Positions 24,987 through 30,212 of a stretch of DNA of 64,000 bases are shown here, one piece after another. Both the position numbers and the translations under genes were made by a program. The stretch comes from a candidate division SR1 bacterium (GTDB lineage Bacteria > Patescibacteriota > Gracilibacteria > Absconditabacterales > Absconditicoccaceae), in assembly GCA_026397475.1 (NCBI GenBank), contig JAPLUT010000002.1:124001-188000 (forward strand). Reading direction: 5' to 3'. The notes beneath the pieces are model-generated. The model searched no databases. It saw only the letters and a list, made by a program, of their open reading frames with translations, and was not told where the DNA came from. Every line of letters begins with the position of its first letter. The first letter of the stretch is position 1.

Positions 24987-25034
24987 TTGAGACGCTAAAA
25001 AAATTAAAGTATAATAAAAAATTTCTAAGGTCGA

Positions 25035-25060
25035 AATTACAAATTATATTATTTGTAATT
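25035..25060. repeat. Perfect palindrome upstream of tRNA-Cys
   Basis: AATTACAAAT and ATTTGTAATT, 10 bp, around a 6-base centre. It is placed between smpB and tRNA-Cys and could be a protein-binding site or a weak hairpin terminator for smpB. Confidence 0.4.
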
Positions 25061-25103
25061 GAAAAGAAAAAGCAGATTCGTATATATGCACCACGACCAA
25101 AAT

Positions 25104-25177
25104 GGCACCTTGCTAGAGTGGTCCAATAGACGGGTCTGCAAAACCTTGGCTCATCGGTTCGAATCCGATAGGTGCCT
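25104..25177 (+). tRNA. trnC: tRNA-Cys(GCA)
   Basis: Acceptor GGCACCT pairs with AGGTGCC; discriminator T. The anticodon loop is CTGCAAA (anticodon GCA). The T-arm is ATCGG-TTCGAAT-CCGAT. CCA is not encoded. One pair of the anticodon stem is mismatched. The only tRNA in the window. Confidence 0.93.
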
Positions 25178-25226
25178 AATAAATTCTAGCAAACTGATCC
25201 AAGCGAATACCCTCAGTTCCGTCATC

Positions 25227-25256
25227 AAAAAAACTCCTCAATGGGAGCTTTTTTTG
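25227..25256 (+). terminator. Terminator after tRNA-Cys
   Basis: CTCC / GGAG core inside A7 and T7 flanks (AAAAAAACTCC ... GGAGCTTTTTTT). The A/T flanks make it potentially bidirectional. Confidence 0.6.
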
Positions 25257-25323
25257 TTATAAAAACGAAACTTGATTTTTTTAAAAATAAAAATATATAC
25301 AAAGACACCAAAAACAAAAAGAA

Positions 25324-25647
25324 ATGAACTACTATATTTATTGTTACGCACTAATTGCAGGCATATTATCATGCGCTGCATATACCTTTGTAGGCCAAAC
25401 TGCTATAAAGATCACAAAATTATCGGTTGAATCAGAAAACGAGGTGTCTCTTAATTTAGGTTTAATCATAATTGGACAAGCAATAATAAGAACAGGAGCA
25501 ATTCTTATAATTGTTATTATAATAGGCCTTCTCATATGTTTTCCACCTCATATAGGCCTATTATTACTACTTATATGGGCTTGTGGTGTATCGTTAGGAG
25601 CAGGATATTTTCTCGGAAATGAAATTGTCGATAGCAAGAGCAGCTAA
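25324..25647 (+). CDS. Hypothetical membrane protein with about three TM helices
   Basis: A 107-residue hydrophobic protein. TM segments are seen at about residues 5-25 (ALIAGILSCAAYTFVG), 45-70 (IIRTGAILIIVIIIGLLI) and 77-98 (GLLLLLIWACGVSLGAGYFLG), with a short acidic loop (VESENE) between the first two. The size and hairpin-with-polar-loop look recall ATP synthase subunit c, but the membrane carboxylate expected in the second helix is absent, so I do not call it. Unusually it contains no TGA codon. A terminator follows 28 bases downstream. Confidence 0.6.
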   Translation: MNYYIYCYALIAGILSCAAYTFVGQTAIKITKLSVESENEVSLNLGLIIIGQAIIRTGAILIIVIIIGLLICFPPHIGLLLLLIWACGVSLGAGYFLGNEIVDSKSS

Positions 25648-25675
25648 AAAACTAAGATTAAAAAAAATCAAACTA

Positions 25676-25706
25676 CGCTTCTGGGTTTTCTCAGAAGTTT
25701 TTTTAT
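25676..25706 (+). terminator. Terminator after the 107-aa membrane protein gene
   Basis: CTTCTG / CAGAAG stem with an 8-base loop and a T7 tract. A near-copy occurs at 27482-27513. Confidence 0.75.
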
Positions 25707-25713
25707 ATACTAA

Positions 25714-25741
25714 TTGATTTTTATCGACAAAACAATATCTT
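25714..25741 (+). promoter_or_regulatory. Putative promoter of the BtpA-NADAR gene
   Basis: TTGATT (25714-25719), a 16-base spacer, TATCTT (25736-25741). It would give a leader of about 55 nt. Confidence 0.4.
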
Positions 25742-25763
25742 GTTGTTAGAACAAAACGAAAAC

Positions 25764-25795
25764 AAAAAGAGAAAGATTAGATTTATCTCTTTTTT
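25764..25795 (+). promoter_or_regulatory. Terminator-like hairpin in the leader of the BtpA-NADAR gene
   Basis: AAAAAGAGA / TCTCTTTTT, a 9-bp stem followed by further T, ending eight bases before the ATG at 25803. It is placed like an attenuator or a translational cover; it is not needed to end the previous gene, which has its own terminator. Confidence 0.45.
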
Positions 25796-25802
25796 TATTT
25801 TA

Positions 25803-27101
25803 ATGAAAAATAGTAGAGAAAAGTTTAAACAAGCTTTTCCAGATGAGCACAGCCTTGTCGTTGCCTTACATGCTAGAGATCTTAAGCATGCATTAGAATG
25901 AACAAAAATAGCAATAGATAATGGAGCACATGGAGTGGCTTTAGTGAGTCATTTTGTTGGACCAGAATATGGCGCTTATATTGCTTGCGTTATTAAAGAA
26001 AGATATCCCTATCACAAAGTAATAGCCAACATAAGACAACGAGAGACACTAAATACTTTCAAGATCATGAAATGAAGCCATATTGATGGAATACGAGTGG
26101 ATCAAGCAATGATTAAATGAATAGATGAAATAGAGGGAAAAGAAAACTCAGCAGAAGAAGTACTACAACGACAGCAAGAAAATTGAGAAGAAAAATTATA
26201 CTTCGGTGGACTCGATTTTAAACATCAAAAACACTTAACCCCAGAAGAATATCCCTTTGCTGTACAGCAAGCAAAAAAGTATCTCGACGTCATTACTACC
26301 AGCTGACCTGCTACAGGAAAAAGTGCTGATGTAGAAAAAGTAAGAAAGATAAAAGAATTATCTGGAGATCATCCGGTAGGACTCGCAAGCGGCGTGACTC
26401 CTGAGAATATCCATGAATATATCTCGAACACCGAAATCTCTATCGTGGCGACAGGAATCAGTAAAAATTATTATGATTTAGATCCCGACAAAGTTCGTCA
26501 ACTCGCAAAAATCATAGAATGATATAATAGAAAGATAGACAGGAAGAAATTTGAAGCTCAAACGCTAGAACAGTATAAAATGACTTCTGCGACAGAACTC
26601 TATAATTATTTAAAACAATGAGAAATAATAAACATAGGAATGCGCATGGAGCATAATGAAATGCAGAAAAAACTCAGCAACCTCTACCCTAGCTCATTTA
26701 CATTAGATGGAATAGAATATGCTTCCGTTGAAGCATTTCGAATGTCTATCAAATATCCAGCGACAGATCCACGTCACGTGGAGATCAGAAAACTTTCTGG
26801 TATCAAAGCAAAGACTGCAGGAGGAGAGGCAAAACTTTTTAAAAGCATTGAATATCAAGGAGAACACATACGTATAGGATCTCCAGAACATCATGCTTTA
26901 CTCAAAAGAGCATTAAGAGCAAAACTAGAACAAAATCCAGATATATTGAAAGCGCTTTTGGATACTTGAGACAAGGAACTTGCTCATATCGTCTTTAGCA
27001 GACACGAAGAAAAAAAGGTTATTCTTCACGACAGCAAAACTATTCCAGGAGAAATATTTGCTCAGTTGTATAAAGAGCTGAGAGAAGAGTTTAGAAAATA
27101 A
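25803..27101 (+). CDS. BtpA-like TIM-barrel fused to a NADAR (YbiA-like) domain
   Basis: A 432-residue two-domain protein. Residues ~1-255 look like the BtpA/SgcQ TIM-barrel family. Seen are the repeating strand-helix pattern, GIRVDQAMIKG, TTSGPATGKSADVEKV (phosphate-binding-type loop) and GLASGVTPENI. Residues ~280-432 resemble NADAR domains: LSNLYPSSFTLDGIEYASVEAFRMSIK, GIKAKTAGG, HALLKRALRAKLEQNP and LLDTGDKELAH. NADAR proteins act on ADP-ribose-type adducts or riboflavin-pathway N-glycosides, so the fusion may process or hydrolyse an N-ribosyl compound; this is inference. A leader hairpin precedes the start. TGA gives Gly in several conserved places, including TSGPATG. Confidence 0.75.
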
Positions 27102-27162
27102 GCAGATTGACATTTAATAACAAATAATTATAAGTAAAATTACAAACAAATAAGAAAAAAAC

Positions 27163-27462
27163 ATGGCACCAACAACATTTCAAAAAGGAACAATAAAGGA
27201 AAAAGAGATGCTTCTTCGTTTCCTAAGTGAACAAGCAAATCAACAAGGCATTAATATGCTCTTAAAAAAAACCGGATCAGAATACATGAAAAAAATGTAT
27301 CCAAAAGAAGCAGAAAGGCGAATGCTTGAGGAGGGCACAGAAATATGGATTTACTGCACAATCATGGATATGCCTGGGGATATGGTTCATATCAAAACAC
27401 TAAATCATGACGTAGAATTAATCATACCCACAGAATTAATTGAAAATATCGAGGTACGATAA
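27163..27462 (+). CDS. Hypothetical small soluble protein
   Basis: A 99-residue protein. The N-terminal half is helical and Lys/Glu-rich (KGTIKEKEMLLRFLSEQ). The C-terminal half looks like a small beta-barrel (TEIWIYCTIMDMPGDMVHIKTL, ELIIPTELIENIEV), reminiscent of an Sm- or SH3-like module, but I cannot assign a family. It lacks TGA codons. Located 61 bases downstream of the BtpA-NADAR gene in the same direction; they may be co-transcribed. A strong terminator follows. Confidence 0.65.
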   Translation: MAPTTFQKGTIKEKEMLLRFLSEQANQQGINMLLKKTGSEYMKKMYPKEAERRMLEEGTEIWIYCTIMDMPGDMVHIKTLNHDVELIIPTELIENIEVR

Positions 27463-27481
27463 ATTAATTTCAAAAATATTC

Positions 27482-27513
27482 AGCTTCTGAGTTTCCTCAG
27501 AAGTTTTTTTTAT
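27482..27513 (+). terminator. Terminator after the 99-aa protein gene
   Basis: CTTCTGA / TCAGAAG stem (7 bp, 6-base loop) with a T8 tract; nearly the same stem as at 25676. Confidence 0.8.
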
Positions 27514-27562
27514 ATTTGAGACATAAGGCCGTGGGATTGTTCGGCGACAATATATTTCCCTT

Positions 27563-27588
27563 TAAAAAAAAGCCCACCTAAGTGGACA
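27563..27588 (-). terminator. Terminator of serS
   Basis: On the minus strand GTCCAC / GTGGGC (one G-T pair), loop TTAG, then a run of eight T. Confidence 0.7.
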
Positions 27589-27607
27589 TTTTTATATACC
27601 GTAAAAC

Positions 27608-28925: not shown

Positions 28926-30044
28926 TTATTTGAAAAACAATTTCTTATATATCATTTCAGCGGCCAATCTCAAACTATTGGAATTTTTTTGTCATTTTTT
29001 GAGACTATATTCAGTATATCTGATATGGACAGGAATTTCAGCATATTTCATATGATGTCTTTTTATTTGTTCATTCACCTCATTGGCATAATGCATACCA
29101 TCTGCAGTAATAATGAATTTTCTTAAGGTAGGCAGCGATATAACTCTATATCAATTATGAGGATCAGAGATGTTTGCACCATAAAATATTCTTGTTACCA
29201 ATTTTGCAATTCAAAGAATGATTTTTCTAAATGCTGGCATATTATCTACCCTACTTCCTTCAAGGAATCTCGAGCCAAGATAAAGGTCAGGTTTTTTATT
29301 TTCAAGATCCAATCCAAGTTTCTGATCAGCATGAATACGATGGATAAAAGCATCCATATCTTTTACATTCATTTGCCCATCCGAGTCAAACCCGACAAAC
29401 CATTTAATTTTAAGCTCATCACCATATTTTTTTATGAAATTATATCCTGTTTGATTAGCTGCCCCACCTCATCTATTGATCGTATGATCAAGAACAACAA
29501 TAAGCGCAAGAGGATACTGTTTTTTCTTTTCTTGAAGAACTTCTAAAGTACTATCGCCCGAGCCGTCATTAACAAGAACTATTTTTCTGAATCAAGCATC
29601 AATGATTTCATCGATAACCTTACCCACAGCTTTTTCTTCGTTATAAACTCTAATATTAAAGACAAAATCGTCTTTTTCATGAGTATTATTTCGATGAGCA
29701 ATTTGATCTTTATTTTGAAGATATCAAGCAATAATCGCTTGTTGAGAGATAAGTTTAGTTAATTGAAATTTATCTTTAGTATGCTTATTAAGCACATCAA
29801 TATAGAAATAGAACAAAAGAATAAGAGAAATATACACCAATACATCAGCACCTCTTGCTATACCAAAGAATCTTCCAAATTGATCCAATAAACTTTGATT
29901 CAATGAAAACGCAATAATCATTGCTCCACCGACAAAGAATACGAAAAAATGCATAATATTCATCTTTTTGCGTCTATAAAGATCAAGCCCAAAGAGTATG
30001 AATACCACAGCAGAAATTAAGATGACAAACTGAAGTAATGACAT
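28926..30044 (-). CDS. DUF2304 membrane domain fused to a family 2 glycosyltransferase
   Basis: 372 residues. Residues ~1-110 are a DUF2304 unit with three TM helices (LLQFVILISAVVFILFGL, IMHFFVFFVGGAMIIAFSL, VLVYISLILLFYFYI). From residue ~125 a GT2 domain follows: FNIRVYNEEKAVG, KIVLVNDGSGDSTLEVL, GFDSDGQMNVKDMDAFI (DxD-type site) and PDLYLGSRFLEG. Such proteins transfer a sugar to polyprenyl phosphate or to a surface glycan. DUF2304 and GT2 genes are usually separate neighbours, so the single chain is notable. TGA codes Gly at the junction and in the active site. The inner ATG at 30044 is chosen because it begins the first TM helix; a longer start at 30074 is possible. Confidence 0.82.
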
Positions 30045-30212
30045 AGTATACCGCCAATAATAAAATTTTCTCAATACGCAATATGTTTTTGCCGTCAGCT
30101 AGATGCATCAAGCATCATTAATGTATACAGTTGAAGGCAAAAATCAAGACATTACCGAAAAGAATCAATTGCTTTGATTAGACAAAAAAGTACACAATAA
30201 AAAAACAAAAAA

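Follow-up and report, generated by a model that had tools for sequence, protein, structure and literature searches.

The window analysed here, a stretch of 64,000 nucleotides, comes from a candidate division SR1 bacterium, and its source genome (1.17 Mb; completeness 99.57%, contamination 2.28%) belongs to a tiny, probably symbiotic cell; code and genome size together point to a patescibacterium of the Gracilibacteria/Absconditabacteria type. Between the genes for SmpB and SerRS lies a reading frame that stays open only if TGA codes for an amino acid, and which, translated with genetic code 25, yields a protein of 432 residues in which a short linker joins a TIM barrel (approximately 1-244) to a NADAR domain (approximately 285-432). 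The initial annotation had described a barrel fused to a NADAR domain, and this observation is correct. The combination of such a barrel with a NADAR of the phage gp30.3 type is a new domain architecture, of which the folds were already known. The features of the locus are as follows:

24987..27607, no strand assigned: variable gap between SmpB and SerRS that holds the fusion, with the same flanks in six genus-mates
25803..27101, + strand: whole fusion gene, ATG start, TAA stop, code 25, eight TGA codons read as Gly, with a full-length homologue at locus L010
25803..26534, + strand: N-terminal TIM barrel, residues 1-244, of a BtpA-related sister clade (PF03437, AF2 model, Z values, and tree)
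26535..26654, + strand: linker of some 40 residues (245-284) with helical parts, the least conserved stretch and 50% identical between the two fusions
26655..27098, + strand: C-terminal NADAR of the gp30.3 phage type, residues 285-432 (PF08010, phrog_652, and the structures 8bau, 2b3w, and 8bat)

The order GlyRS, LiaF-like protein, SmpB, SerRS, glycosyltransferase, and HisRS is kept wholly or partly in six genus-mates. In all of these the SmpB-SerRS gap contains different small genes and the fusion is missing, which indicates a patchy accessory gene. In one genus-mate (G003), the gap carries a candidate NUDIX-like gene, judged so by eye (L065:4309-4719). The gap of the window itself also contains a small orphan (25324-25647; 107 aa, membrane-like) for which tblastn found no homologue in the six genus-mate loci, and positions 28926-30074 of the window encode a single protein in which a DUF2304 domain is fused to a family 2 glycosyltransferase. 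A toxin-antitoxin pair was considered and rejected, as GlyRS, SmpB, SerRS, HisRS, and some small orphans make up the neighbourhood, and as searches restricted to DarT and Macro gave no match in the genome. The phage-defence or toxin-antitoxin setting evoked by the initial annotation is thus not seen at this locus, where the neighbours are housekeeping genes.

Genetic code and the second fusion

A second full-length fusion was found in a genome of another genus (locus L010, genome G031), with 60% identity over 430 aligned positions. A chance or assembly join was rejected on the ground that the same full-length fusion occurs in this independent genome. The codon alignment of both genes bears directly on the reading of TGA: at positions 33, 128, and 168 of the window protein TGA is also TGA in the second fusion, at positions 106 and 389 it is GGT, and at position 197 the window gene has GGC where the second fusion has TGA, while the TGA codons at positions 91, 240, and 273 face N, V, and N. 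This alignment supports Gly as the meaning of TGA in the window gene. The share of TGA among Gly codons (28%) lies within the range of seven other window genes (23-59%), and is thus normal for the neighbourhood, making a very recent arrival from a donor with the standard code unlikely. The small orphan at 25324-25647 is the sole compared window gene without TGA Gly codons.

Identity between the two fusions at the first, second, and third codon positions was 0.65/0.77/0.45, which indicates purifying selection. The same pattern holds separately for the barrel halves (59% identical) and the NADAR halves (64% identical), and these figures point to purifying selection on both parts of the protein. 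The second fusion lies at a different locus, with a gene for the Der GTPase downstream and without SmpB adjoining.

The barrel and NADAR halves

The N-terminal half was accepted by the Pfam BtpA family (PF03437) with 43.3 bits (cut-off 30) over residues 76-238 only, and remained below the cut-offs of the NCBIfam BtpA/SgcQ family TIGR00259 (45 vs 153.4 bits) and of phosphoribosylanthranilate (PRA) isomerase, PF00697 (17.9 vs 22.7 bits). The full-length AF2 model (mean pLDDT 87.8, pTM 0.77) displays a barrel of the phosphate-sugar type. Its closest folds are hexulose-phosphate synthase (Z 20.8), TrpA, KDPG/KDPGal aldolases, and PRA isomerase (PRAI; Z 18.3); in this model comparison, Z values of about 18-21 are too close together to choose a function for the barrel. 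Conserved polar residues and motifs at the strand ends, namely, H23, N76, D100, K140, TTSGxxTG, and ASGxxxxN, are kept in both fusions:

25869..25871, + strand: codon of H23, where strand 1 of the barrel ends, without variation in one alignment (A1) and with almost none in another (A3)
26100..26102, + strand: codon of D100, end of strand 4, in the family motif WxDxA (here RVDQA)
26220..26222, + strand: codon of K140, just after strand 5, in the motif FGGxxFKxQ
26295..26318, + strand: TTSGPATG motif, residues 165-172, with G168 encoded by TGA
26385..26408, + strand: ASGVTPEN motif, residues 195-202, by its position a putative PRAI-like phosphate-binding region

In a tree of 28 barrel sequences that included canonical BtpA and E. 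coli SgcQ, the two fusions fell into a clade of 20 members (support 100/100, branch length 2.68) that stands apart from canonical BtpA/SgcQ. Besides the fusions, this clade contains members from four phages, six plasmids, and eight patescibacteria, and its phages include genomes of 485 and 642 kb; many of its internal forks are without resolution, and the closest relatives of the fusions are not settled (81/68). The earlier assignment of the N-terminal half to BtpA/SgcQ is therefore retained at the level of the Pfam family and replaced, on the basis of the NCBIfam cut-off and the tree, by a sister clade of the canonical proteins. The initial annotation had stated that BtpA is without a settled enzymatic role; in the open-licence papers searched, neither a ligand nor a reaction was found for any protein of the BtpA clade.

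As the list of PDB matches of the whole model was filled by barrel matches, a separate model of the NADAR half was built and compared. This model (pLDDT 83.4, pTM 0.82) matched the NADAR of P. nicotianae with ADP-ribose (8bau; Z 14.1, rmsd 2.5 over 139 residues), E. coli YbiA (2b3w; Z 13.4, rmsd 2.7 over 139), and the NADAR of G. lovleyi (8bat; Z 9.6, rmsd 3.6 over 142); these three were the only high-Z matches, the next best reaching Z 2.4. In BFVD, viral NADARs were matched. With Pfam, Phage_30_3/gp30.3 (PF08010) was matched above the curated cut-off over residues 290-409 (55.8 vs 36 bits; 44.4 bits for the second fusion), and in PHROGs the C-terminal half matched phrog_652 (64 bits), which gp30.3 of phage RB49 also matches. 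The YbiA-side profile PF08719 scored just under its cut-off (28.9 vs 35.1 bits), and since TIGR02464 also remained below its cut-off, a YbiA/RibX label was rejected. Profile searches thus uphold both assignments made earlier, a BtpA-type N-terminal and a NADAR C-terminal half, except that the NADAR is of the gp30.3 phage type rather than YbiA. Three of its residues stand out:

26730..26732, + strand: codon of E310, which pairs in the alignment with E43, the catalytic-site Glu of the protein in 8bau
26751..26753, + strand: codon of K317, which pairs with K50, the Lys that contacts phosphate in the 8bau protein, at an identical E-x6-K spacing
26985..26987, + strand: codon of H395, invariant in five aligned sequences, at the last-strand position that phage NADARs fill with His

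By alignment, E310, K317, and H395 appear to fit the published catalytic set of the phage type (PMC11543638, PMC11125620): the Glu and Lys of the active site and the acid of the last strand are important in the NADAR of E. coli C7 (PMC11543638), and phage NADARs carry His where others have a last-strand Glu or Asp (PMC11125620). All NADARs tested, one phage protein included, hydrolysed guanosine-ADPr in DNA (PMC11125620), and the NADAR of T4 also accepts RNA, with a lower efficiency than that of E. coli C7 (PMC11833690). Given the fold, the catalytic residues, and these published activities, the NADAR half likely hydrolyses N-glycosidic ADP-ribose. Reading NADAR as an N-glycosidic ADP-ribose hydrolase agrees with the published characterisation of family members, a phage gp30.3 among them.

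Distribution and gene context

Searches with the window protein (P0001) found the full fusion in two of the 49 genomes of the family, its own and G031, and these were the only two among all genomes searched, the collections having been sampled. Of 288 genomes of the class, five are matched by BtpA profiles and six by gp30.3 profiles. The scan of genome contigs for fusions was limited by its search pattern, and further fusions may exist elsewhere; no fusion was found in scans of viral contigs, and no match to the NADAR half among plasmids. One genus-mate without the fusion (G007) has a canonical BtpA gene (L048:5962-6777; 131 bits).

Some NADAR genes seen in the searches are recorded here for their own sake. 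Two genomes from separate families of the class each encode a gp30.3-type NADAR whose long C-terminal extension has no assigned family (G212, L074:332-2622; G179, L071:886-3312). In each, it comes after a pair of unknown genes that are similar between the genomes in order and size, in what looks like a conserved three-gene cassette; the partners had no Pfam match, and the L074 set no PADLOC match. A viral contig encodes a family A DNA polymerase protein with a weak, N-terminal, NADAR-like stretch (L009:7875-10766), of which Pfam confirms the polymerase only, the NADAR being suggested by a local profile (E 1.6e-5). In a Candidatus Obscuribacter MAG, a NADAR lies within a multidomain protein of 781 aa (L011:15-2360), beside a repetitive protein of 2,485 aa.

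On two Rhodobacterales plasmids, a phosphoribosyltransferase gene directly follows that of a barrel relative: on that of Rhodovulum the two genes overlap by 4 bases, and on that of Pseudohalocynthiibacter a PRPP synthetase gene follows as well. A Variovorax plasmid carries two overlapping barrel genes (L021:6977-8379), the second of which lacks the FK lysine and scores above the PRAI cut-off, as does a phage relative (P0003). On plasmids of Delftia, Variovorax, Bosea, and P. mendocina, the neighbours of the barrel were mostly uninformative by Pfam. In the 642-kb phage (L007), the barrel, a nucleoside-deoxyribosyltransferase-like gene, and a YbiA-type NADAR (138 bits) occur within approximately 8.5 kb, the NADAR at about 5.5 kb from the barrel, a proximity that carries little weight since phage genomes are dense. 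Standalone barrels of eight other patescibacteria and of the other phages had no nearby NADAR by the gp30.3-type profile and no repeated operon partner among the genes listed. Across the phage, plasmid, and patescibacterial loci, this profile, which may miss YbiA-type proteins, placed a NADAR beside the barrel only in the fusions. The question raised earlier, whether BtpA-like and NADAR genes are neighbours or fused in other genomes, is therefore answered by one further fusion; they are not generally neighbours, and the sole proximity seen is that in the huge phage. The fusion gene itself has likely been exchanged with mobile elements.

Proposed function and comparison with known systems

The PRAI-like phosphate region, together with the phosphoribosyltransferase, PRPP synthetase, and phage neighbours and the second Variovorax copy, suggests a ligand of the phosphoribosyl type for the barrel. 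The initial annotation had proposed one substrate class for both halves; this is plausible in view of the genes beside the barrel relatives and the PRAI likeness, but it is still an inference, for which the fusion itself and the two plasmids are the main basis. We tentatively favour a bifunctional enzyme, to which we give somewhat less than even weight, and which would work as follows: I) the NADAR half would hydrolyse the N-glycosidic bond that joins ADP-ribose, or ribose 5-phosphate, to guanine or a small amine; II) base and sugar phosphate would be released, by a mechanism modelled on characterised NADARs including phage gp30.3; III) the barrel, like PRA isomerase, would bind a phosphoribosyl compound by its phosphate; and IV) the barrel, as an active enzyme, would act at or near ribose C1 via H23, D100, and K140, this chemistry being presumed. 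Carrying both enzymes in one chain would allow a two-step processing of N-ribosylated material, probably for protection from ADP-ribosylation damage or for recycling of its products.

It is doubtful, yet conceivable, that the NADAR is the only enzyme and that the barrel is non-catalytic, binding ADP-ribose, a nucleotide, or a partner, or setting the oligomeric state. No reaction is known for the barrel family, its PVIH start has become VALH/VSLH in the fusions, the W of WxD is R in the window copy, and two relatives (L005 and the second Variovorax copy) have lost the FK lysine; however, H23, N76, D100, K140, and the TSG and SG-N motifs persist in both fusions, and the barrel is under purifying selection as the NADAR half is. 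Similarly unlikely is a role as a counter-toxin, in which the protein would shield the cell, or a source phage or element, from a guanine-ADP-ribosylating toxin of a host, prey, or rival. The gp30.3 type is that of phage NADARs (PMC11125620), the distribution is patchy with insertion in a variable gap, and PDC-M42C, a candidate-defence profile of PADLOC, spans the NADAR half, but the phage NADAR that was assayed failed to rescue cells from DarT1 (PMC11125620), the genome lacks DarT and Macro matches, the neighbourhood is housekeeping, and the barrel would be left unexplained. Riboflavin damage control, with the NADAR cleaving reactive phosphoribosylamino-pyrimidines and the barrel handling ribose 5-phosphate, is very improbable. 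In its favour is a weak match to the riboflavin N-glycosidase TIGR02464 (25.1 vs 73.7 bits, below the cut-off); against it, the YbiA Glu is replaced by His, and DHBP synthase (RibB) was not found in this 99.57%-complete genome while being found in all 14 control genomes. An assembly misjoin of two adjacent genes or a misread TGA, for which the non-standard code and eight in-frame TGA codons might speak, has a negligible probability against an independent second fusion that aligns over 430 codons, the pairing of TGA with glycine codons, and a TGA share (0.28) normal for the neighbours.

The bifunctional reading has a wider, rather improbable extension, namely, that the barrel clade of huge phages, plasmids, and patescibacteria comprises undescribed enzymes that process the phosphoribosyl or ADP-ribosyl product of NADARs. 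If true, this would give a two-step pathway for repairing and recycling ribosylated bases, and the first defined chemistry for the BtpA superfamily. The clade is now delineated, where annotation merges its members with BtpA or calls them hypothetical, and the selected fusion of a BtpA-type barrel with a phage-type NADAR is a directly testable pairing.

Several known systems may be compared. PRAI shares with the barrel the fold and, by position, the C-terminal phosphate-binding region, with weak profile matches, whereas the fusion falls below the PF00697 cut-off and no Trp-pathway context was seen. The BtpA/SgcQ family has in common with it the TIM barrel, the SG/TG motifs, the strand-1 His, and a Lys in the strand-5 motif; the fusion barrel differs by a shorter N-terminal region, the FGGxxFKxQ and TTSGxxTG signatures, and its separate long-branch clade. 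Viral multidomain NADARs (fusions with SLOG, Macro, or DUF4326; PMC9503650, PMC7824862) similarly join a NADAR to a ribosyl- or nucleotide-related domain, and a BtpA-like partner is not named in the parts of these sources that were consulted. The DarT1-associated NADAR antitoxin of DarTG1 shares the NADAR fold and the E and K residues, but such NADARs have Asp at the position of His in the fusion, which, unlike DarTG1, has no DarT next to its NADAR. The best curated match is phage gp30.3 (T4/RB49 30.3), which shares the whole domain, the E-x6-K spacing, and the last-strand His; RB49 gp30.3 is a standalone protein of approximately 160 aa with Arg aligned at the Lys position, whereas the NADAR of the fusion makes up the C-terminal half of a protein encoded on a bacterial chromosome.
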